A DNA stretch of 33,704 nt from Marinomonas foliarum. Lineage in GTDB: Bacteria > Pseudomonadota > Gammaproteobacteria > Pseudomonadales > Marinomonadaceae. A program made the position numbers and the translations under genes. How positions within the stretch are numbered: position 1 is the stretch's first letter; every line of letters starts with the position of its first letter. Positions 13,390 through 22,619 of the stretch are shown here, piece after piece. The notes under the pieces are model-generated. The model worked only from the letters and a program-made list of their open reading frames with translations, ran no database searches and had not been told where the DNA came from. The DNA lies in the NCBI RefSeq assembly GCF_003337275.1, contig NZ_QPJQ01000024.1, forward strand, positions 1 to 33,704, given 5' to 3'.

Positions 13390-13406
13390 GTTAAGCTTAG
13401 CTTAAC
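13390..13406. promoter_or_regulatory. Operator-like palindrome upstream of dctP
   Basis: GTTAAG-CTTAG-CTTAAC is a perfect interrupted palindrome containing TTAAG-N5-CTTAA, a T-N11-A type LysR site. The same arms and spacer length recur at 17422-17436 next to the lysR gene. It lies 140 bp before the dctP start. Confidence 0.65.
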
Positions 13407-13460
13407 ATTTCTTTAAGTTTACCTCATTGCAAAGAGATAAACTTTCCATCAATACTAACC

Positions 13461-13504
13461 ATATGGCATACGGGTAACTCGATATATTGAAGCCAATGCC
13501 ATAT
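13461..13504. promoter_or_regulatory. 9-bp inverted repeat in the dctP leader region
   Basis: ATATGGCAT (13461-13469) is the exact reverse complement of ATGCCATAT (13496-13504), separated by 26 bp. It ends 42 bp before dctP. It could be a protein-binding pair or an mRNA stem with a large loop; the sequence alone does not decide. Confidence 0.4.
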
Positions 13505-13546
13505 TGAACGAAAGATAAAAATAATTAGCATAAGCTAGGAGTTCAG

Positions 13547-14518
13547 ATGAATCTTATTGCCAAAAACTTTATTTACATTAGTGTTACAGCAGCTTTCTCT
13601 TCAACCGCATTAGCAAATACAATTGTTTTCGCTCATGGCGCAAACCCTGGAAACCCTCGGTACGAAGCCGCTGAAATGTTTGCTAAACTAGTCCCTATAT
13701 GCACCTCCGGTCAATTTAATGTTCAAGTAGCACCTTCAGCTACGATGGGCGATGATGCAGAACAGTTAATATCCGCTCAAGCAGGCATTATAAATATGTC
13801 TGCAAACTCGCAAGGCACCACAGCTCAAATAGTTCCAGAAGTGGGAACTCTCGGCCTTCCTTTCTTATTCAAATCTGAAACTGATGTCTGGAGAGTACTT
13901 GATGGCGAAATTGGTCAAGAGCTAGACAGAAAAGCCCAAAGCTCTGGACTTAAGATTGTTACTTTTTGGGATAACGGCTTCCGAAATGTAACTCATACCA
14001 AGAAATCCATTCGCACCCCTGACGATATAAAAGGGATGAAAATTCGCACCCCACCAGATGAAGTCGCTCTAGATATATTTGCGACATTAGGAGCTAACCC
14101 AGCACCATTAGCTTGGAGCGAGCTCCCAACCTCACTTCGTAGTGGAGCATTCGATGGACAGGAAAATCCACTGACGAATATATACTCAGCCAAGATACAT
14201 GAAATTACACCTTACATATCAATGACAGGACACCAATACCAGAGCACACCTGTAGTTGCTGGCTTGGCATGGTGGGAAAGTCTAGACAGTAAAACTCAAG
14301 ATTGTATTTCTACGTCTGCCAAGCAAGCTGGCTGGTTCCAGCGCGGAAGAAATATGTTTGAAGTAGAGCGATTAAAAACAGTCTTAAAATCCGAGGGAGC
14401 TATAATCACAGAGGTTGATTACGATGCTTTTGTTAAAGCAACAGCACCTGTATACGAGAAATATGAAACTCAATACGGTGATTTCCTTAGAAAATTAAAA
14501 CTAGCTTCGGAACAATAA
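13547..14518 (+). CDS. dctP: TRAP transporter substrate-binding protein (DctP family)
   Basis: A periplasmic solute receptor that hands its ligand to the DctQM permease for Na+-driven import. The 323-residue precursor has a signal peptide ending ALA near residue 23. Family motifs are present: FRNVTHTKKSIRTPDDIKGMKIRTP, whose last arginine normally clamps the ligand carboxylate, and GAFDGQENPLTNI. A carboxylate ligand (organic or sugar acid) is therefore likely but unspecified. AGGAG precedes the start. It is the first gene of a dctPQM operon with dctQ two bases after its stop. Confidence 0.93.
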   Translation: MNLIAKNFIYISVTAAFSSTALANTIVFAHGANPGNPRYEAAEMFAKLVPICTSGQFNVQVAPSATMGDDAEQLISAQAGIINMSANSQGTTAQIVPEVGTLGLPFLFKSETDVWRVLDGEIGQELDRKAQSSGLKIVTFWDNGFRNVTHTKKSIRTPDDIKGMKIRTPPDEVALDIFATLGANPAPLAWSELPTSLRSGAFDGQENPLTNIYSAKIHEITPYISMTGHQYQSTPVVAGLAWWESLDSKTQDCISTSAKQAGWFQRGRNMFEVERLKTVLKSEGAIITEVDYDAFVKATAPVYEKYETQYGDFLRKLKLASEQ

Positions 14519-14519
14519 T

Positions 14520-15095
14520 ATGCATGACTACACCTCCAAAGGAAGTGTAAAAGTCTCGTCGGGCAAATTGCCCGGCAGACTTCTTTGCTTCTCTTTAACA
14601 CTACGTCGCTGTATTTATGTTGTCAGTGCAGGCATCATCTTAATTAGCTTTAGCACGATGTTTTTAGCTATTTTTGCGAATGTGTTTTTACGCTACCTTT
14701 TTGATCAAGGTATTTCATGGGCTTACGAGCTACCTCAGCTTCTATTCCCTTGGGCTGTGGCTGCTGGCATGGTGCTTGCTTCTACACTTAAAGGTAATAT
14801 TTCAATAGACTCTCTTGTCAATGCCCTTCCTGCTTCTATTCAAAGAATAGTACTTATTATGGTCAACCTTATCGTTGGTGCAACTTGCGTAAGCGTTTTG
14901 CACTACGCCATGCCAGTAATCAAGGCATCGAAATATACCAAGTTAGCAGAAACAGGATTATCACAAATATATGGCTACTCAAGCTTAGTATTCGCATTTA
15001 GCTTAATAGCTACTATATCTCTACTCAATATCATTGATTACTTACTAAGCAAAGAAAGTATCAATCGAAATCCTGAAAACAATAATTACAGCTAG
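14520..15095 (+). CDS. dctQ: TRAP transporter small permease (DctQ family)
   Basis: The small membrane subunit of a TRAP transporter, 191 residues with four membrane segments (about 33-58, 70-90, 107-127, 152-175). The characteristic VFLRYLFDQGISWAYELPQLLFPW stretch follows the first segment. The N-terminus is about 30 residues longer than usual, so a later start is possible, but the ATG right after the dctP stop fits coupling. The 10-bp gap to dctM supports one transcript. Confidence 0.9.
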   Translation: MHDYTSKGSVKVSSGKLPGRLLCFSLTLRRCIYVVSAGIILISFSTMFLAIFANVFLRYLFDQGISWAYELPQLLFPWAVAAGMVLASTLKGNISIDSLVNALPASIQRIVLIMVNLIVGATCVSVLHYAMPVIKASKYTKLAETGLSQIYGYSSLVFAFSLIATISLLNIIDYLLSKESINRNPENNNYS

Positions 15096-15105
15096 GGATC
15101 TAATT

Positions 15106-16362
15106 ATGGCAACTATTTTGCTTTGGCTGTTTCCACTACTACTAGTGGCTTCAGTTCCGGTGGCTTATGCAATGATTGGCGCGTCAGGCATTGCTTTGTT
15201 TATAGAAAACAAACCGCTTGCAGTTATGGCTCAGCGCCTCTATACACCTACTCAGAGCTTTCCAATGCTCGCTATTCCTTTCTTTATCTTAGCGGGGAGT
15301 CTCATGATGCAAGGCAAATTTGGCACTTACTTAGTTGAGTGTGCAAAAATGTTTGTTGGCCGTCTGAGAGGAGGCATGTGTCATGTGAGTGTTTTGGGTT
15401 CTGTCATGTTTGGTGGCGTTTCAGGATCTGCCGTTGCTGATGCATCCGCCCTTGGTAACGCCCTTATCCCCATCCAAAAAAAGGAAGGTTATTCAGCAGG
15501 CTTTGCAGGAGCTGTAAATGCAGCCTCTTCCACTGTATCGGTCTTAATTCCTCCATCCATACCATTGATTTTATATGGTCTTTCTTCCAATACATCCATT
15601 ATTGATTTATTTGTAGCAGGTATTCTTCCGGGCATTTTACTTGGTATGGGGATGCTACTTTTAGTCTGGTTGATTGCAGTCAAACGAGGCTATAAAAGCT
15701 CCCCTATTGAAGGCGGGTTTAAGCAGTGGAGAGCACAGCTATTGCACGCGTTACCGGCAATTTTTATGCCTATTTTTGTAATAGGAACGCTACGCTTTGG
15801 TATTGCCACACCAACCGAAATTAGCGTATTAGCTGTTGGATACGCTTTATTAATAGGCTTATTTATCTATAAAGACCTAAGTGTCAAATGCATTATTAAG
15901 GCAACCATAGATACGGGCGTTATGACTGGCGCGGTGATGGTCATAATTATGGCATCGTCGATTATTCAGTGGATCCTAACACTTGAGCAAGTACCTCAAA
16001 ATTTGGCCATTTGGGTAACGGCTACTATCTCTGAACCTTGGATGGTCATTCTTGCGATGAATGTTATTATGCTAATTGTTGGCACGTTTTTGGATTTGCC
16101 AGCTGCGGTATTATTACTGACGCCCTTATTCTCAACTATTGCAGCTTCAATAGGGCTAGATCCAGTGCAATTGGGTCTTATTATGGTAGTAAACTTAGCT
16201 ATAGGCTTATATACCCCGCCTGTTGGGACAACCCTTTATATATCTTCTTCAATCGCCAAAGTATCTATTGGTGCAGTTGTTAAAGAGCTGCTCCCTTTTT
16301 ATCTAATGGCTTTGGGAGTACTTGCACTAATTAGCTATGTCCCATCCCTAATCATTTATTAA
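15106..16362 (+). CDS. dctM: TRAP transporter large permease (DctM family)
   Basis: The large membrane subunit that carries out Na+-coupled transport. It has 418 residues and about 12 membrane segments. Typical motifs include FFILAGSLM, GGVSGSAVADASALG and a matching VPQNLAIWVT and TPPVGTTLY in the second half. The two-fold pseudo-repeat of the family is visible. It ends the operon; a hairpin and the convergent lysR gene follow. Confidence 0.93.
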   Translation: MATILLWLFPLLLVASVPVAYAMIGASGIALFIENKPLAVMAQRLYTPTQSFPMLAIPFFILAGSLMMQGKFGTYLVECAKMFVGRLRGGMCHVSVLGSVMFGGVSGSAVADASALGNALIPIQKKEGYSAGFAGAVNAASSTVSVLIPPSIPLILYGLSSNTSIIDLFVAGILPGILLGMGMLLLVWLIAVKRGYKSSPIEGGFKQWRAQLLHALPAIFMPIFVIGTLRFGIATPTEISVLAVGYALLIGLFIYKDLSVKCIIKATIDTGVMTGAVMVIIMASSIIQWILTLEQVPQNLAIWVTATISEPWMVILAMNVIMLIVGTFLDLPAAVLLLTPLFSTIAASIGLDPVQLGLIMVVNLAIGLYTPPVGTTLYISSSIAKVSIGAVVKELLPFYLMALGVLALISYVPSLIIY

Positions 16363-16385
16363 ACAAGACTATCAGGCCAACCCAA

Positions 16386-16418
16386 AACAACTCACTTGTT
16401 AAATGCAGGTGAGTTGTT
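16386..16418. terminator. Hairpin between dctM and lysR
   Basis: A perfect 10-bp stem, AACAACTCAC / GTGAGTTGTT, with a 13-base loop. On the minus strand the stem is followed by TT and GGG, on the plus strand by AA, so the U-tract is weak. Its position between two convergent genes makes a shared terminator likely. The right arm ends two bases inside the lysR stop codon. Confidence 0.55.
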
Positions 16419-17397
16419 AATGAGGATTTAACAATTCATCAATAACTTGGTCCTCAATAACCTGAACCCCTAGCTTAGTTAGTGTATCCAAAGTCACAAT
16501 TTGGTGTGCCTCCGCTTCTTCTAGCAACCAATTCGTAAATAACTGATAAAGCTTTCGACTTTGGTGCTGACTTGGGCTGACTACCCAGTAAGCAGGGATT
16601 TTAATAGCCCCAACTTCCGAATAAGCAGGAACAAGCTTACCAGACAGTAACTCTTCTACTGCTAGGGTTGTAGACTCCAATACTACACCAACACCATTTA
16701 CAGCTTGCTGAATAGCCATAGAAGAGCGATCAAAGCGAATTGCGGGGACGTCTGCATTCCGGCTAAAATGCAAACGAGCTAACCAAGCCTCCCATTGCAA
16801 CATAGCTTTTACACTATCTATTAATCGCGTCTGCTGTAATTTTTCCTCCATTGTTCCATTCAAGCCCTGTAAATAATCACGATACTCTGGACTGCACATT
16901 GGCAGAATATAGTCATGTAATACAGGTAAACAATACAATCCAGGCCAATCACTTGGGCCATATCGAATGTCAAAATCCACAACTTCTCGCTCAAAATTAG
17001 TTGGGTCTGGTGTTGCATCAATACGCAAATCCCACTCAGGGTACTGAGTAATAAAAGAATGGAGTCTTGGGCCTAGCCACCTGACAGCAAAACTAGGAAT
17101 AACTTTTACAATAAGCTGGTGGCTATCTCGCTTACGAGAAATAACGCGTCGTGCATTTTTCAAAATACCAAACGCTGACGAACTAGCCATGAACAAGCGC
17201 TCACCTTCTAATGTCAAACTCAGCTGGCGTTTATGGCGTTTAAAAAGCGCAACGCCAAGCATTTCTTCTAATAATTTAATCTGTTGACTAACTGCGGAAG
17301 CCGAAACATTTAACTCTTCTGAAGCTCGGGCTACTTTTCCATGACGTGCCACAGCTTCAAAATAAATCATCCCATTCAGACTAGGATCTCTCGACAT
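16417..17397 (-). CDS. LysR family regulator, GcvA-like subgroup
   Basis: A DNA-binding transcription regulator of 326 residues. The N-terminal winged helix-turn-helix covers about 5-65 (YFEAVARHGKVARASEELNVSASAVSQQIKLLEE), and the type 2 periplasmic-binding-like effector domain follows, with the GcvA-type segment DFDIRYGPSDWPGL. I place the start at 17397 because GGAG stands six bases before it; the ATG at 17409 has no ribosome site. It is divergent from the transketolase genes and convergent with dctM. The palindrome at 17422-17436 is 25 bp upstream of its start. It likely controls both neighbours and itself, probably with the transported substrate or a product as inducer. Confidence 0.88.
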   Translation of the reverse strand: MSRDPSLNGMIYFEAVARHGKVARASEELNVSASAVSQQIKLLEEMLGVALFKRHKRQLSLTLEGERLFMASSSAFGILKNARRVISRKRDSHQLIVKVIPSFAVRWLGPRLHSFITQYPEWDLRIDATPDPTNFEREVVDFDIRYGPSDWPGLYCLPVLHDYILPMCSPEYRDYLQGLNGTMEEKLQQTRLIDSVKAMLQWEAWLARLHFSRNADVPAIRFDRSSMAIQQAVNGVGVVLESTTLAVEELLSGKLVPAYSEVGAIKIPAYWVVSPSQHQSRKLYQLFTNWLLEEAEAHQIVTLDTLTKLGVQVIEDQVIDELLNPH

Positions 17398-17421
17398 AAA
17401 TGGCTCCATTATAGAAATTTG

Positions 17422-17436
17422 TTAAGTACAGCTTAA
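17422..17436. promoter_or_regulatory. Operator-like palindrome between lysR and transketolase genes
   Basis: TTAAG-TACAG-CTTAA, a perfect TTAAG-N5-CTTAA palindrome. It is the second copy of the element found at 13390-13406 upstream of dctP. It is placed to serve as the LysR recognition site for autoregulation and for activation of the divergent transketolase operon. Confidence 0.65.
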
Positions 17437-17536
17437 TTAACCTTTAATTTATGCTAATTGTCTAGCCTCTTCTCTCAGCGCAGAATAATTCCACGAGTTC
17501 AGGTAGCTTGTAAATTAAAAATAAGAGAGAGATATT

Positions 17537-18379
17537 ATGAATCCAGAAACTAATCAACAGATTAGCCTCGCACGACGCGCATGGAATATTCGCAGAAAGT
17601 CTGTGCTTATGGGGGCAGTTCAAGGGCAAGGCTATGTAGGTCAAGCCTTAGGTGTTTCCGATGTGCTCGCTGCATCTTACTTTCATGCTCTAAAATTCCG
17701 TCCAGAAGATCCTGAGTGGGAGGGTCGTGACCGCTTTCTTTTATCAATAGGCCATTACGCTATTGCCTTATATGCGGCTTTACTTGAAGCAGAAGTACTT
17801 CCGGAATATGAATTAGAAACCTACGGAACAGACAATAGCCGCCTTCCTATGTCTGGAATGGCTTCTTACACGCCTGGCATGGAAATAACAGGCGGATCGC
17901 TTGGCCATGGCTTGGGAATTGCTGTAGGCATGGCGCTAGGCCTTAAAGCGAAGCATTCAGACTCTTTTGTATATAATCTGATGTCTGATGGAGAGCTAGG
18001 TGAAGGCTCCACATGGGAAGCTGCGATGTCTGGCGCCCATCACAAGCTAGATAACTTAATTTGTATTATCGATTTCAATAATCAACAAGCCGATGGCCCC
18101 TCAACAGAAACACTATCCTCTGAACCCCTAGATAAAAAATGGGAAGCCTTTGGCTGGTTTACCCAACGTATCGACGGCAATGATATGGATGCAGTGGTCG
18201 AGGCATTTGACAAGGCTCGAAATCATGATCAACCCGTGCCACGGGTAATCATTTGCAACACAAAAATGTGTAAAGGCATTCCTTTTCTTGAGGAGCGTGA
18301 AATAACCCATTTTGTCCGAGTTGAAGCCGATGAATGGGAAAAAGCCCTTAATGTTTTAGAAGAAGGAAAACCAGCATGA
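17537..18379 (+). CDS. Split transketolase, N-terminal (TPP-binding) subunit
   Basis: The 280-residue thiamine-diphosphate/Mg-binding half of a two-gene transketolase. Seen: GHYAIALYA (H73), GGSLGHGLG (119-127), and the TPP motif SDGELGEG (150-157) followed by DFNNQQADG (179-187). The first glycine of the usual GDG is a serine here. Full-length house-keeping transketolases exceed 600 residues; this and the next gene together make about that length. Split forms are known in archaea and in specialised sugar pathways such as apulose-4-phosphate (AptAB) and sulfoquinovose (SqwGH) catabolism. Its stop overlaps the next start (ATGA). Confidence 0.9.
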   Translation: MNPETNQQISLARRAWNIRRKSVLMGAVQGQGYVGQALGVSDVLAASYFHALKFRPEDPEWEGRDRFLLSIGHYAIALYAALLEAEVLPEYELETYGTDNSRLPMSGMASYTPGMEITGGSLGHGLGIAVGMALGLKAKHSDSFVYNLMSDGELGEGSTWEAAMSGAHHKLDNLICIIDFNNQQADGPSTETLSSEPLDKKWEAFGWFTQRIDGNDMDAVVEAFDKARNHDQPVPRVIICNTKMCKGIPFLEEREITHFVRVEADEWEKALNVLEEGKPA

Positions 18380-19413
18380 GTATGAGCCGTCGATCATCTA
18401 AATGGGAGCCTCGCAAACCAGTTCCTGCTGAAGAACGCCAATTAACATCTGCAATGATTGCCTCACTTGGTGCAGAAGGTTTGCCAACGGTATCCGCACC
18501 ATTCGGTCACGCATTAGCCGAGTTGGCTAACGAACAAAAAAATATTGTAGGTTTAACTGCTGACCTTGCTAAGTACACGGATTTACATGTATTTGCACAA
18601 AAGCATCCCGAACGTTTTTATCAAATGGGCATGGCCGAACAACTACTATTTAGTGCCGCTGCTGGTATGGCTAAAGAAGGCTTTATCCCTTTTGCCACAA
18701 CGTATTCCGTCTTTGCTTCCCGAAGAGCCTATGATTTCATCTGCATGGCAATCGCGGAGGACAACTTACCGGTAAAAATAGTCTGTGGCTTACCTGGACT
18801 AACGACTGGGTATGGACCAAGTCATCAAGCAACCGAAGACGTCGCTATTTTCCGCGGCATGCCGAATATGACGATCGTTGACCCCTGTGACGCAATTGAT
18901 ACAGCTCAAGCAGTACCAGTAATTGCAGCTCATGACGGGCCTGTTTACATGCGACTACTACGCGGTAAAGTTCCTTCAGTACTTCAAGATTACGATTACA
19001 AATTCGAATTGGGTAAAGCAAAAAACCTGACCGAAGGCAACGATGTGCTAATCATCTCATCAGGCTTCATGACTATGCGGGCTCTTGAAGTAGCTAATAC
19101 ATTAAAAGCAGATAATATTGGCGTTAGTGTATTACATACACCAACTATTAAGCCCCTTGATACTGAGACCATTATTAAAGAATGCTCAAAAAAAGGACGC
19201 CTAGTTGTTGTTGCTGAAAACCATACTGAAATTGGTGGTTTGGGTGAAGCCGTTGCAATGACACTCATGAAAAATCAGGTGTTCCCAGTATTAAAACAAA
19301 TAGCGCTACCGGATGAATTTTTAGATGCCGGTGCCCTTCCTGTACTGCACGACCAATACGGCATTTCCGTATCCGCCATGCTTACTAAAATAAAAATGTG
19401 GTTAAACAAATAA
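18376..19413 (+). CDS. Split transketolase, C-terminal subunit
   Basis: A 345-residue partner of the preceding gene, with the pyrimidine-binding domain first and the C-terminal transketolase domain after about residue 215. E88 in MGMAEQ is the catalytic glutamate that activates thiamine diphosphate. GPSHQATEDVAIFRGMPNM (about 155-173) and YMRLLRGK (about 196-203) are typical of the group. Together the two subunits should transfer a two-carbon ketol unit between sugars. The first ATG overlaps the preceding stop; an in-frame ATG two codons later is an alternative. The SDR gene starts 10 bp after its stop. Confidence 0.9.
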   Translation: MSMSRRSSKWEPRKPVPAEERQLTSAMIASLGAEGLPTVSAPFGHALAELANEQKNIVGLTADLAKYTDLHVFAQKHPERFYQMGMAEQLLFSAAAGMAKEGFIPFATTYSVFASRRAYDFICMAIAEDNLPVKIVCGLPGLTTGYGPSHQATEDVAIFRGMPNMTIVDPCDAIDTAQAVPVIAAHDGPVYMRLLRGKVPSVLQDYDYKFELGKAKNLTEGNDVLIISSGFMTMRALEVANTLKADNIGVSVLHTPTIKPLDTETIIKECSKKGRLVVVAENHTEIGGLGEAVAMTLMKNQVFPVLKQIALPDEFLDAGALPVLHDQYGISVSAMLTKIKMWLNK

Positions 19414-19423
19414 GGATCTATCA

Positions 19424-20176
19424 ATGGGTATTCTTTCAGGTAAATTCGCCATTATTACTGGCGCGGCATCTAAAAATGGTTTGGGTAAAGCAACAGCAAA
19501 ATTATTTGCTGAACACGGCGCAACAGTCGCCATCCTAGACCTTAATCTTGATCAAGCTATCGAAGCTGCAGCGGACCTTGGCACTCAACACATAGGCTTA
19601 GCTTGTAACGTCGTCAAGGAAGAAGACTGCCAAATCGCTGTCGCAACATTATTAGAAAAGTGGGAACGCATTGACATATTAGTGAACAATGCAGGAATAA
19701 CCCAGCCTTTAAAAATAATGGACATCAAAGGTGAGAATTACGATGCGGTATTAGATGTAAACCTTCGCGGCACTCTTTTGATGAGCCAAGCTGTTATTCC
19801 TGCTATGCGAACACAAAAAACCGGCTCTATTGTGAATATCTCTTCTGTTTCAGCTCAACGTGGCGGTGGTGTTTTTGGTGGTCCGCATTATTCTGCAGCA
19901 AAAGCAGGTGTTCTAGGTCTAACAAAAGCCATGGCTCGCGAACTGGCTCCTTCTAATATTCGCTCAAATGCTATTTGCCCAGGTTTTATTGGAACGGATA
20001 TAACAGCTGGAAAAATGGATGACGCGATGTATGCCAAAGTAATGGAAGGTATACCAATGGCTCGCGCAGGAAAAGCTGAAGAAGTTGCTGGATGCTGCTT
20101 ATTCTTAGCGTCAGATCTTTCAAGCTATGTAACTGGCTCCGAAGTAGATGTTAATGGCGGATCTCTAATTCACTAA
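19424..20176 (+). CDS. Short-chain dehydrogenase/reductase
   Basis: A 250-residue NAD(P)-dependent oxidoreductase of the classical SDR family. The dinucleotide site is TGAASKNGLG (12-21), a longer variant of TGxxxGxG. NNAG is at 88-91 and the catalytic residues are N113, S143, Y156 and K160 (YSAAK). D38 at the end of the second strand (AILDLN) favours NAD over NADP. It is the last gene of the transketolase operon, so it probably oxidises a polyol or sugar acid to the keto substrate of the transketolase, or reduces a product. FabG of fatty-acid synthesis is unlikely in this context. Confidence 0.88.
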   Translation: MGILSGKFAIITGAASKNGLGKATAKLFAEHGATVAILDLNLDQAIEAAADLGTQHIGLACNVVKEEDCQIAVATLLEKWERIDILVNNAGITQPLKIMDIKGENYDAVLDVNLRGTLLMSQAVIPAMRTQKTGSIVNISSVSAQRGGGVFGGPHYSAAKAGVLGLTKAMARELAPSNIRSNAICPGFIGTDITAGKMDDAMYAKVMEGIPMARAGKAEEVAGCCLFLASDLSSYVTGSEVDVNGGSLIH

Positions 20177-20224
20177 CGAATACACGTTAGAGATGCCTAA
20201 CTGAATTTACGGTGTAATACTTTT

Positions 20225-20247
20225 GCCCCGCCTTGCGGGGCTTTTTT
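20225..20247 (+). terminator. Intrinsic terminator of the transketolase-SDR operon
   Basis: A 7-bp GC-only stem, GCCCCGC / GCGGGGC, with loop CTT, followed by six T residues. It lies 48 bp after the SDR stop on the same strand. Confidence 0.93.
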
Positions 20248-20315: not shown

Positions 20316-20765
20316 CTATTTCGTCATGAGCATTGGGCCAGTGCCTTTCTCACCCAACTCATCATAAGGGTTAAGAAGCCGACACCTTTCCAGAGAAAGA
20401 CAACCACAACCGATACAATCAGCCATCATTTCTTTCAGCTCAACCAATTGGGTGATCTTCTTATCAAGCTCATTTTGCCATCTGGCGCCCAACGCCTCCC
20501 AATCATCTATAGTAACGCGGGTGCGATTGGGCAACCCTTCAAGCTCCAATAAAATATCCTCCAAAGAAAAGCCTGTTCGCTGAGCAACCTGAATAATAGA
20601 AACAACCCGAATGACATGCTTTGGATACTGCCTATGGTTAGATGTATTTCTTTGGCTCTTGATTAGCCCTTTTCTTTCATAGAAATGCAAAGCCGACACC
20701 GACACACCAGTTCTTTCACTTAACACTCCCACTGAAATCCATTCAGGCATTATTATTTTTCGCAT
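20316..20765 (-). CDS. soxR: Redox-sensitive transcriptional activator SoxR
   Basis: A MerR-family dimer with a [2Fe-2S] cluster that activates target promoters when oxidised by redox-cycling compounds. The 149-residue protein has the MerR helix-turn-helix (WISVGVLSERTGVSVSALHFYERKGLI, about 9-35), a dimerisation helix, and the cluster motif C-x2-C-x-C-x5-C with C117, C120, C122 and C128. A second in-frame ATG five codons later could be the start. It is divergent from an MFS exporter gene with a SoxR box between. No soxS is seen; in most non-enteric bacteria SoxR controls exporters and reductases directly. Confidence 0.95.
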   Translation of the reverse strand: MRKIIMPEWISVGVLSERTGVSVSALHFYERKGLIKSQRNTSNHRQYPKHVIRVVSIIQVAQRTGFSLEDILLELEGLPNRTRVTIDDWEALGARWQNELDKKITQLVELKEMMADCIGCGCLSLERCRLLNPYDELGEKGTGPMLMTK

Positions 20766-20772
20766 TTAACGC

Positions 20773-20803
20773 TTGACCTAAACTTAAGTTGAGGTATCAG
20801 AAT
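20773..20803 (+). promoter_or_regulatory. SoxR-box promoter of the MFS-reductase operon
   Basis: TTGACC (-35, 20773-20778) and CAGAAT (-10, 20798-20803) are separated by 19 bp, the over-long spacer typical of MerR-family activated promoters. Within it lies the near-perfect 18-bp dyad CCTAAACTTAAGTTGAGG (20777-20794), very close to the known SoxR box CCTCAAGTTAACTTGAGG. It sits 8 bp before the soxR start, so SoxR bound there could also repress its own gene. Confidence 0.85.
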
Positions 20804-20896
20804 AGCTATAAACCCAAGCTAACTCAAGCCAGTACTTAATAAACAGCTGAGAAAACACTTGAGAAAATACCATCTACATTCAGGAAGAGAACCTTA

Positions 20897-22090
20897 ATGA
20901 AAAATGACTTATTAGAATCCAGAGCTCTTTGCCTGCTGCTAATTTCTACATTAACCGTGATGTCCAACGCCACTATTGCTCCGGCATTACCAGGATTAGC
21001 CAACGAGTTTTCGGGAACACCTTCAGCCGATTTCTGGGTAAAAATGCTATTACCTATCCCAGCTTTATTTGTGGTGATTTTTGCGCCGATCTTAGGCTGG
21101 ACAGCGGATAAGTTCGGTCGCCGAAATCAAATCATCATTGCGACGACCATCTTTGCCATCGCCGGAGCTGCTGGCGCACAGCTGCAAGACTTAGAAGCTA
21201 TTATTATCAGCCGAGCCATTCTGGGCATATGTGTCGCTGGACTAATGACCGCTGTAACGGCGTTAATAACCGATTATTATTCTGGTCCGAAAAGAAGCCA
21301 ATTTATGGGACTACAACAAGCTTTCTCCAATATTGGCGGCATTCTTTTCATCGTTACAGCGGGCTATTTAGCAGGCATCAGCGCTCGACTGCCTTTTTAT
21401 ATCTACGCCATTGCTATTCTGTTGCTTCCGCTCATATTCCTGTCTATTCGTGACAGCAAGCAAATCAATCAGCCAAACGATAACCAACAAGACGATACCA
21501 ATACCAGCTGGAAGCTACCGCTCATCGGCTGCTCTCTTCTCCTTTTTTGCCACTTAATCGTCTTTTATATCCTGCCAACACAAATTCCATTTTTTATGGT
21601 GGATATTGGTATCACTGATCCAAGTAAGTCAGGTCTGGCAATAGGAATGGGGACATTAATCGCCGCGATAACGGGGGTGTTCTTTGGCAAGCTGGTTGCT
21701 AAAATCCAAAGCTACGGCGTCGCACTCATCGGCTTTGTATCCATGAGCCTTGGTATGCTCGTGCTATCACAAGCCACCTCGTTCAGCTTAGTTATTCTCG
21801 GTTGCGGCCTCATGGGTGCTTGCATGGGATTGGTAATGCCAAATTTCATGGTAAAGGGCATGGCGCTTGCGCCAAACAACAAGCGCGGACTCGCATCTGG
21901 CGTGCTGACAAGTAGCATCTTCATTGGGCAATTTGTTTCACCTTTTGTCACCTCAACTCTTATCGCCAAGTTTGGATACAGTGACTTTTACTTATTAGCA
22001 GGGGCTTTTACTTTAGTTCTAGCCATTGCAGGCGCAGCCACTCTGAAAAAACAATCTACTCTCACTACAAACGTCAATAAAGGAAACTAA
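20897..22090 (+). CDS. MFS drug/metabolite exporter, SoxR target
   Basis: A 397-residue, 12-segment major facilitator protein. Motif A of the family appears as GWTADKFGRRNQI (about 73-85) in the loop between segments 2 and 3. Helix 4 carries SRAILGICVAGLM. AGGAAGAG precedes the ATG. From the SoxR-box promoter and the reductase behind it, it probably expels a redox-active toxic compound such as a phenazine or quinone. The exact substrate cannot be read from the sequence. Confidence 0.87.
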   Translation: MKNDLLESRALCLLLISTLTVMSNATIAPALPGLANEFSGTPSADFWVKMLLPIPALFVVIFAPILGWTADKFGRRNQIIIATTIFAIAGAAGAQLQDLEAIIISRAILGICVAGLMTAVTALITDYYSGPKRSQFMGLQQAFSNIGGILFIVTAGYLAGISARLPFYIYAIAILLLPLIFLSIRDSKQINQPNDNQQDDTNTSWKLPLIGCSLLLFCHLIVFYILPTQIPFFMVDIGITDPSKSGLAIGMGTLIAAITGVFFGKLVAKIQSYGVALIGFVSMSLGMLVLSQATSFSLVILGCGLMGACMGLVMPNFMVKGMALAPNNKRGLASGVLTSSIFIGQFVSPFVTSTLIAKFGYSDFYLLAGAFTLVLAIAGAATLKKQSTLTTNVNKGN

Positions 22091-22091
22091 A

Positions 22092-22619
22092 ATGAAAGTA
22101 CTGGCCTTCGGCACAAGCAGCAGCAAAAACTCTATCAACAAGAAACTGGCTTTTTATGCTGCCCAGCAAATCAACAACGCAGACGTGTCACTAATCGACA
22201 TTAACGACTTTGAAATGCCAATCTATAGCGAAGACAGAGAAAAAGAGTCAGGCATTCCGCAGCTCGCGCATGATTTTTATAAGGCAATAGGCTCGGCCGA
22301 TAGCATCGTGATGTCATTCGCCGAATACAACGGTTCTTATACTTCTGCCTATAAAAACCTATTCGACTGGACATCCCGAATAGACATGAAAGTTTTTCAG
22401 AATAAAGCTGTTCTTATGCTATCCACCTCACCGGGCCCCAGTGGAGCGCAAAGCGTTTTAGCTGCCGCACAAGCCTCAGCATCCTACTTTGCAGCGAGCG
22501 TAATCGGTGCCATATCATTACCGAGCTTCTTTGATAACTTTGATACAACAAAGGGAGTGGTTACCGATGAAACATTTAAACAACACCTATTAAGCAGTAT
22601 TGATAAGCTTTCTTTTTAA
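22092..22619 (+). CDS. NADPH-dependent FMN reductase family protein
   Basis: A 175-residue flavodoxin-like reductase. FMN phosphate loop: GTSSSKNSINKKLA (residues 7-20). The second flavin motif is AEYNGSYTSAYKNLFDW (about 77-93), close to PEYNGS..ALKN of the ChrR/YieF/azoreductase group. The start is two bases after the exporter stop, so the two are one operon under SoxR. It may carry out two-electron reduction of quinones or similar compounds, avoiding redox cycling. Confidence 0.88.
   Translation: MKVLAFGTSSSKNSINKKLAFYAAQQINNADVSLIDINDFEMPIYSEDREKESGIPQLAHDFYKAIGSADSIVMSFAEYNGSYTSAYKNLFDWTSRIDMKVFQNKAVLMLSTSPGPSGAQSVLAAAQASASYFAASVIGAISLPSFFDNFDTTKGVVTDETFKQHLLSSIDKLSF

Follow-up and report, generated by a model that had tools for sequence, protein, structure and literature searches.

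The cassette and its operator-like sites

In Marinomonas foliarum, a stretch of 33,704 nucleotides (contig NZ_QPJQ01000024.1, positions 1 to 33,704; hereafter the window) contains a cassette of seven genes, all intact, at 13547-20176. They code for a tripartite ATP-independent periplasmic (TRAP) transporter, a LysR-type regulator, a transketolase split into two halves, and a short-chain dehydrogenase/reductase (SDR). Two units, each on one strand, are separated by the divergent lysR: dctPQM (13547-16362), and the two transketolase halves with the SDR (17537-20176). The first unit, on the plus strand, encodes the solute-binding protein DctP (13547-14518; PF03480, 248 bits), the small permease DctQ (14520-15095; PF04290) and the large permease DctM (15106-16362; TIGR00786, 418 bits with a cut-off of 268), separated by 1 and 10 bases. 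The regulator encoded by lysR (16417-17409, minus strand; PF00126 and PF03466) is GcvA-like, GcvA being its best NCBIfam model at 254 bits, below the 288 cut-off. In the second unit, also on the plus strand, the N half, which carries the thiamine diphosphate (ThDP) binding domain (17537-18379; PF00456, 133 bits), overlaps by four bases the C half with its pyrimidine-binding and C-terminal domains (18376-19413; PF02779 and PF02780). The SDR gene follows after 10 bases (19424-20176; PF13561, 236 bits) and codes for a classical SDR with the active-site motif SSVSAQRGGGVFGGPHYSAAK, probably NAD-dependent as judged by D39. A Rho-independent terminator on the plus strand (20225-20241) ends the cassette, with a stem of seven G-C pairs (GCCCCGC and GCGGGGC), a CTT loop and T6.

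An earlier note, made from the sequence alone, had described dctPQM, a GcvA-type lysR, overlapping half-transketolases, an SDR and a strong terminator, and every part was found present and intact. It had also remarked on the lack of a kinase or isomerase. Pfam and NCBIfam profiles of the encoded proteins likewise gave no gene for either in the block 13390-20247. Two ordinary full-length transketolases are encoded elsewhere in the same genome.

A palindromic operator-like site, GTTAAGCTTAGCTTAAC (13390-13406), lies upstream of dctP and has no mismatch to the pattern GTTAAGNNNAGCTTAAC. A second, GTTAAGTACAGCTTAAT (17421-17437), lies in the gap between lysR and the transketolase genes and has one mismatch; neither site is assigned a strand. 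The first is at the same place in all five related loci with a dctP (L037-L040 and L042), and the second recurs in the same gap of six related loci, the L038 copy needing three mismatches. We scanned the window together with six marine gammaproteobacterial loci (L037-L042), 144,596 bases in total, allowing up to two mismatches. This gave 13 sites versus a mean of 0.6 in first-order Markov controls (20 runs, range 0-3). Twelve of the 13 are either upstream of dctP or in the gap from lysR to the N half; those in the three closest cassette copies are not independent, as these copies share recent ancestry. The other, with two mismatches, is in L040 between the SDR gene and an operon coding for OtnK (3-oxo-tetronate kinase) and OtnC (decarboxylase), 275 bases before the first gene of that operon. 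Among nine loci from other clades, eight had no site and L043 had one stray site, and the motif is therefore particular to the marine gammaproteobacterial clade. A looser search of the window alone with three mismatches returned 11 sites versus 7.7 by chance, no excess, so the operator signal rests on the near-exact sites. From these sites, the cassette looks like one regulon held together by a palindrome common to the dctP unit and the lysR-transketolase gap, and the palindromes are probable sites of the LysR-type regulator.

Recurrence of the transketolase and SDR module

The earlier note had proposed comparing the genome neighbourhoods of the two transketolase halves. We did so at 97 loci, comprising the best 80 of 567 confirmed genome matches, 16 plasmid loci from 209 plasmid records, and the window. 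The set leans to close relatives and Pseudomonas, and some loci are cut by contig ends. Neighbourhoods were typed by tblastn, and the unannotated plasmid loci L126, L129 and L131 were read by tblastn alone. The N half is beside the C half in all 97 loci, an SDR of at least 60% identity is near the pair in 93, and a LysR is found in 85. Transporters are of the TRAP type in 38 loci, the D-galactonate type of the major facilitator superfamily (MFS) in 47, another MFS type in one and the sugar ATP-binding cassette (ABC) type in seven; some loci have two kinds and seven have none, part of those at contig ends. The gene order in Pseudomonas fluorescens FW300-N2E3 (L053), for example, is LysR-SDR-MFS followed by the two transketolase halves. 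Also encoded are a 3-hydroxyisobutyrate dehydrogenase (HIBDH)-type dehydrogenase (24 loci), a DAK-type kinase (14), a TIM-barrel protein (15) and a fuconolactonase-like hydrolase (6). The SDR is missing from four loci, three of which (L048, L049 and L120) have the HIBDH-type enzyme instead; the fourth, L056, begins at a contig end inside an MFS gene. An even sample of the phylum (24 loci from 23 genomes) gave an SDR of at least 58% identity in 20 loci, the HIBDH-type enzyme only in one, and neither in three. The last are L191 and two distant loci at about 50% identity, L210 and L211, where the SDR matches nearby are weaker (29-34%).

In a tree of 85 rows, with AptAB set as the outgroup and 35 MFS-type rows and two pairs left out, the SDR was replaced by the HIBDH-type enzyme in two separate clades (L048/L049 and L120/L205) and the transporter type switched at least seven times. 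The SDR and transketolase are kept together across the α-, β- and γ-proteobacteria while transporters are swapped. The counts and the tree thus indicate an enzymatic core of oxidoreductase and split transketolase with an exchangeable importer. An auxiliary transketolase of the pentose phosphate pathway, beside an unrelated transporter by chance, would be expected to have the intact ThDP residues described below. We regard this as very improbable given the two full-length transketolases already in the genome, the persistence of the SDR-transketolase linkage despite the transporter swaps, and the operator-like sites common to both units. An ordinary pentose phosphate duplicate was rejected on the existing transketolases, the conservation of the module, and the tree.

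The module recurs in many soil, plant-associated and marine bacteria. In the phylum sample, a C half at E ≤ 1e-70 is encoded in 24 of 398 genomes: this genome, 21 at 66-73% identity (three more of the same order among them), and two more distant ones at about 50%. Among 145 genomes sampled from the order, a close C half was found in this genome alone, the next best having 37% identity, so that one of the five genomes of the genus in that sample has it. The split transketolase and SDR, part of the possible undescribed catabolic system suggested earlier, are thus a recurrent module and no local oddity. In the records examined, the annotation of module proteins goes no further than labels of the kind "transketolase" or "SDR family oxidoreductase". 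Possible relatives in Rhizobium leguminosarum are the transketolases RL2718-19 and the SDR RL2725; of these, RL2719 and RL2725 were raised in the alfalfa rhizosphere, and the adjoining importer on arabinogalactan (PMC3333776, in excerpt). Bradyrhizobium blr2168 is another possible relative (PMC5996035, in excerpt).

Several groups of loci carry additional genes. In Mesorhizobium and Aminobacter (L045, L047, L077, L108 and L118), the module is found with a ribose-type sugar ABC importer and a fuconolactonase-like amidohydrolase, which suggests entry from a sugar or lactone. The rhizobial loci L043, L046, L057, L117 and similar ones code for a TIM-barrel protein and a fused DhaK-DhaL kinase after the SDR, which may be a branch phosphorylating a ketose such as dihydroxyacetone or erythrulose. 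No NCBIfam model matched the TIM-barrel proteins of L117 and L121. Assignment of the rhizobial TIM-barrel protein beside the SDR as OtnI or hydroxypyruvate isomerase was rejected because it matched neither of the two E. coli proteins at 1e-3. Five loci from the α-, β- and γ-proteobacteria (L040:15474-17456, L041:5569-7557, L042:13426-15468, L129:11964-13949 and L131:604-2556) encode another transketolase type, which is full-length (63-71% identity to the reference), next to a 2-hydroxyacid dehydrogenase resembling PRK06932.

In three relatives from the same genus (L184, L186 and L187), yecE is directly followed by greB; in a fourth, L185, no greB was found next to yecE. In the window, the yecE-greB interval (about 12.9-22.7 kb) holds the cassette together with soxR, an MFS gene and an FMN reductase gene. 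Judged by gene order, the seven-gene cassette is a block inserted between yecE and greB. Among the matches listed, the copies closest to it belong to Marinomonas atlantica (L037) and to a metagenome-assembled genome (MAG) labelled Neptuniibacter (L038), with C halves 94% identical. In both, the seven genes stand in different surroundings, with none of the other window genes tested. The soxR, MFS and FMN reductase genes (20316-22619) had no match in the stretches around these two cassettes and are probably an acquisition separate from it. A plasmid copy in Sulfitobacter (L119:2550-9044) adjoins TniQ, TniB and Mu-type transposase genes and an integrase gene.

Proposed substrate class and pathway

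The earlier note had assigned the TRAP system to a carboxylate. In line with this, the putative DctP clamp residues R146, R167 and N207 are invariant in 47 rows and map onto R152, R173 and N213 of 4P47, which bind the carboxylate (PMC11668362, in excerpt). The same source describes ten DctP-related structures, several with pantoate or erythronate and three with six-carbon sugar acids. The predicted model of DctP (pLDDT 88.9) has 4xeq, 4pdh, 4pdd, 4pak and 4nq8 as its nearest structures. The SDR, suggested earlier as the oxidising enzyme, has the residues expected of an NAD-type SDR. The glycine motif (G13, G19 and G21), D39, SSVSAQ and YSAAK are conserved in 93 of 93 proteins, as in a classical SDR with an S-Y-K triad, and we take D39 to be the NAD-type Asp. 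The motif SSVSAQRGGG(I/V)FGGPHYSAAK is the same in all 93 except for I or V at 150 and one F151L. The nearest structure, 7krk/7krm (308 bits), was deposited as a 3-oxoacyl-ACP reductase, which is probably not the function of this SDR subfamily. The deposited entry, a close relative, may be misnamed.

Gene context points to four-carbon sugar acids (tetronates) as the substrate class, which narrows the carboxylate proposed earlier. In L040, a Marinobacter MAG, the operon downstream of the SDR codes for OtnK (550 bits, cut-off 350) and OtnC (279 bits, cut-off 250). With its palindrome copy, this operon shows that at least one relative has a kinase branch, perhaps under the same regulation as the module. 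L041 and L042 encode two of the proteins of the L040 operon, the hydroxyacid dehydrogenase and the full-length transketolase. The HIBDH-type enzymes replacing the SDR in L048 (an Oceanospirillaceae MAG) and L049 (Vibrio penaeicida) pass the curated L-threonate dehydrogenase cut-off of 350 with 360.8 and 356.1 bits. The other six such proteins tested also have this model as their best, yet at 208-331 bits, below the cut-off. In the rhizobial loci L043, L046 and L117, OtnK, OtnC and/or OtnI matches lie within about 10 kb; L043 has OtnC at 302 bits, over its cut-off of 250, and OtnI at 300, under its cut-off of 325. Curated OtnK is encoded in 21 of the 24 module genomes and 59 of the 374 others (398 genomes; Fisher p 2.8e-13, a statistic that ignores lineage and genome size), compared with 8 of 24 and 67 of 374 for the control UxaC (p 0.10).

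Some of these genes could instead suit a five-carbon substrate. The SDR would oxidise a pentonate to a 4-keto-pentonate, from which the transketolase would release tartronate semialdehyde, with HIBDH acting as reductase, or an isomerase, or a 2-hydroxyacid dehydrogenase plus glycerate kinase, leading on to phosphoglycerate. L040 encodes both a 2-hydroxyacid dehydrogenase and a glycerate kinase (TIGR00045, 495 bits), and similar dehydrogenases (55-73% identity) are encoded in L041, L042, L049, L129 and L131. HIBDH also matches tartronate semialdehyde reductase models, more weakly, and DctP is close to 7BBR, reported with 2-keto-3-deoxygluconate (PMC11668362, in excerpt). However, OtnK and OtnC of the same L040 operon are C4 enzymes, the threonate dehydrogenase model is preferred by HIBDH in eight of eight copies tested, and the extra genes are absent from the window neighbourhood, from L037-L039 and from the Pseudomonas loci. 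We therefore consider this route unlikely.

The known threonate route uses LtnD, OtnI, OtnK and OtnC (PMC12540250, in excerpt). No match to the DUF1537 kinase family (PF07005) was found in the whole M. foliarum genome (88 contigs, rated 100% complete; an E. coli control was positive), so this route should not run here. For LtnD the best NF043037 match in the genome has 184 bits versus a cut-off of 350.

A plausible reading, which we hold as tentative, is that the cassette imports a tetronate, that the SDR oxidises it to 3-oxo-tetronate, and that the split transketolase cleaves the product with no kinase step. The TRAP system would take up an acid of the L-threonate or D-erythronate type, and the NAD-dependent SDR would make HOCH2-CO-CHOH-COO-, laid out like a transketolase donor with its C2-keto and C1/C3-hydroxy groups. 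From this, the split transketolase would move HOCH2-CO- to an aldose phosphate such as glyceraldehyde 3-phosphate, giving xylulose 5-phosphate and glyoxylate, and malate synthase G could take up the glyoxylate. Acting at the common palindrome, the LysR protein would activate the two transcription units. We infer the substrate, the position of oxidation, the acceptor, the products and the binding of the regulator. A four-carbon donor fits the gene set because the glyoxylate formed beside the sugar phosphate calls for no additional enzyme in the pathway; the leftover would be tartronate semialdehyde from a C5 donor and a tetruronate from a C6 donor. The genome has a malate synthase domain in a 756-residue frame at C3:114521, and a sub-threshold match to glyoxylate carboligase (334 vs 711 bits). 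SqwGH is a precedent for an unphosphorylated anionic donor with glyceraldehyde 3-phosphate as acceptor (PMC9594981, in excerpt).

To examine the donor pocket, residues were mapped in E. coli TktA numbering, with 95 of the 97 pairs counted and the same two left out as in the tree. The residues that we take to bind ThDP and metal (H66, G114, D155, N185, H261, E411, F437 and H473) are conserved in all 95, and R520 is as well. All 95 also share a set of changes: H26 is Tyr, H100 (presumably donor-side) is Ser, R358 is Ala, H461 is Gly or Ala, and D469 is Tyr, while S385 has no counterpart; R358, S385 and H461 we take to be phosphate contacts. Both ordinary transketolases of this genome retain H26, H100, R358, S385, H461 and D469, and AptA retains H26 and H100. 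By its residues, the pocket of the split transketolase is a type of its own, and an unphosphorylated donor is neither proved nor excluded by it. Loss of the TktA phosphate contacts was dropped as proof of such a donor since AptAB, which acts on a phosphate, has lost them too.

The same residues bear on two other mechanisms. In an ordinary ketose-phosphate route, a kinase encoded elsewhere would phosphorylate the substrate and the transketolase would act on the phosphate, as AptAB does. The retained R520, the DAK-type kinases and TIM-barrel proteins in 14 and 15 of the 97 loci, and the operator copy at the L040 OtnK operon agree with it. We judge it to have little likelihood, as 83 of the 97 loci (the window included) lack a DAK kinase, identity to AptAB is just 38% and 28%, and the phosphate contacts are lost, this last a weak point in view of AptAB. 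A coregulated kinase is what the earlier note had named as telling against its own proposal; such a kinase may exist in L040, but the block has none. In the second mechanism, the SDR or an LtnD-like enzyme would oxidise C2 and the ThDP enzyme would decarboxylate the 2-oxo acid and pass a three-carbon acyl to an aldehyde, as Dxs does with pyruvate. LtnD itself oxidises C2 (PMC12540250, in excerpt), the C half is a good match to Dxs (TIGR00204, 201 bits), with Y392, R398, H431 and R478 of Dxs conserved in three representatives aligned, and H100S could open the C1 side of the donor pocket. We nonetheless find this improbable: H261 matches transketolases, Dxs having Phe there, R420 of Dxs is missing, and the best model for both halves is the transketolase PRK05899.

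Returning to the kinase-free cleavage of 3-oxo-tetronate, several points weigh against it. The SDR and transketolase activities in the chain are predictions from genes and context. 3-Oxo-tetronate is a β-keto acid and may decarboxylate. Ser replaces the donor-side H100 in all 95 pairs, though His is kept in AptA and the ordinary transketolases, and the donor may therefore not be an ordinary hydroxymethyl ketone. Kinases are near the module in some relatives, of the DAK type in 14 of the 97 loci and of the OtnK type in four (at E 1e-8, one of them short). Relatives also hold a glycerate kinase, 2-hydroxyacid dehydrogenase, DAK kinase and TIM-barrel protein that the C4 model does not need. At E 1e-12, OtnK, OtnC and OtnI were found in none of the 24 even-sample stretches; in five genomes of that sample the kinase and module are on one contig, 14 to 171 kb apart. 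By the genome counts of OtnK, the kinase route co-occurs with the module, and mutual exclusion of the two was ruled out. DctP relatives also bind C6 sugar acids (PMC11668362, in excerpt). LtnD yields 2-oxo-threonate, not the 3-oxo acid (PMC12540250, in excerpt), and L048, L049 and L120 showed no isomerase of the OtnI, Hyi or TIM type. Should the SDR and LtnD really be equivalent, a 2-oxo acid could be the donor, with decarboxylation.

A broader form of the proposal is that an undescribed pathway free of phosphorylation is widespread, in which the SDR or LtnD makes an oxo-tetronate, this is itself the C2 donor, and the products are glyoxylate and a pentose phosphate. With it goes the view that the split transketolase is distinct, with a donor pocket unlike those of TktA, Dxs and AptAB, and is served by TRAP, MFS and ABC importers swapped across the Proteobacteria. 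We regard the two together as conceivable but doubtful. What is new is the variant of the pathway and the clade of uncharacterised split transketolases; no protein family taken singly is novel. In the open-access titles, abstract openings and passages covered, no description of a transketolase acting on a tetronate was found. If true, the proposal would give a substrate class and mechanism to a module recurring in the sampled genomes across the Proteobacteria. It would also be a natural use by transketolase of an unphosphorylated oxo-sugar acid, a point treated as open for 5-keto-gluconate and tartaric acid in a plant-biochemistry review (PMC11066805, in excerpt). Finally, it would add a kinase-free branch of threonate degradation, a further bacterial way beside two kinase routes; threonate is a main breakdown product of vitamin C in plants (PMC12540250, in excerpt).

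Comparison with known systems

The observations of the earlier note were confirmed, and its interpretation was partly supported and sharpened. As that note stated, the split transketolases AptAB and SqwGH come with kinases or isomerases in specialised pathways. AptAB, which acts on apulose 4-phosphate in the D-apiose pathway, is also a two-gene transketolase in a catabolic cluster, and the D469 position is Tyr in both. The cassette pair is 38% and 28% identical to AptA and AptB of E. coli SE15, in keeping with the earlier view that it stands apart, and its family has Tyr and Ser where AptA has H26 and H100. The E. coli SE15 cluster also encodes AplK (annotated as an FGGY kinase) and a ribose-type ABC importer. 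Membership in the apulose system was rejected by identity, by the pocket, and by the lack of a kinase beside the pair.

Two comparisons rest on published descriptions. SqwGH, the 6-deoxy-6-sulfofructose transketolase, resembles the proposed enzyme in using an unphosphorylated anionic ketose with glyceraldehyde 3-phosphate as acceptor (PMC9594981, in excerpt). Unlike the cassette, its sulfosugar pathway has isomerases; Pfam and NCBIfam profiles found no sulfoquinovose isomerase or SqwI-type gene in the cassette block. Rif15 of rifamycin synthesis is also encoded by overlapping half-genes and carries out a ThDP-dependent C2 transfer, but to a biosynthetic acceptor (PMC6002545, in excerpt). By sequence alone, the nearest solved structures of both halves are those of the Carboxydothermus split transketolase (6yaj and 6yak).

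The L-threonate/D-erythronate pathway shares the predicted substrate class with the cassette. An LtnD-like enzyme replaces the SDR in some copies of the module, and OtnK/OtnC adjoin a few, once behind the same operator-like site. It differs in that the cassette has no LtnD, OtnI, OtnK or OtnC, with the DUF1537 kinase family missing from the genome. Where that pathway phosphorylates and decarboxylates its intermediate, the cassette is predicted to cleave it by transketolase.

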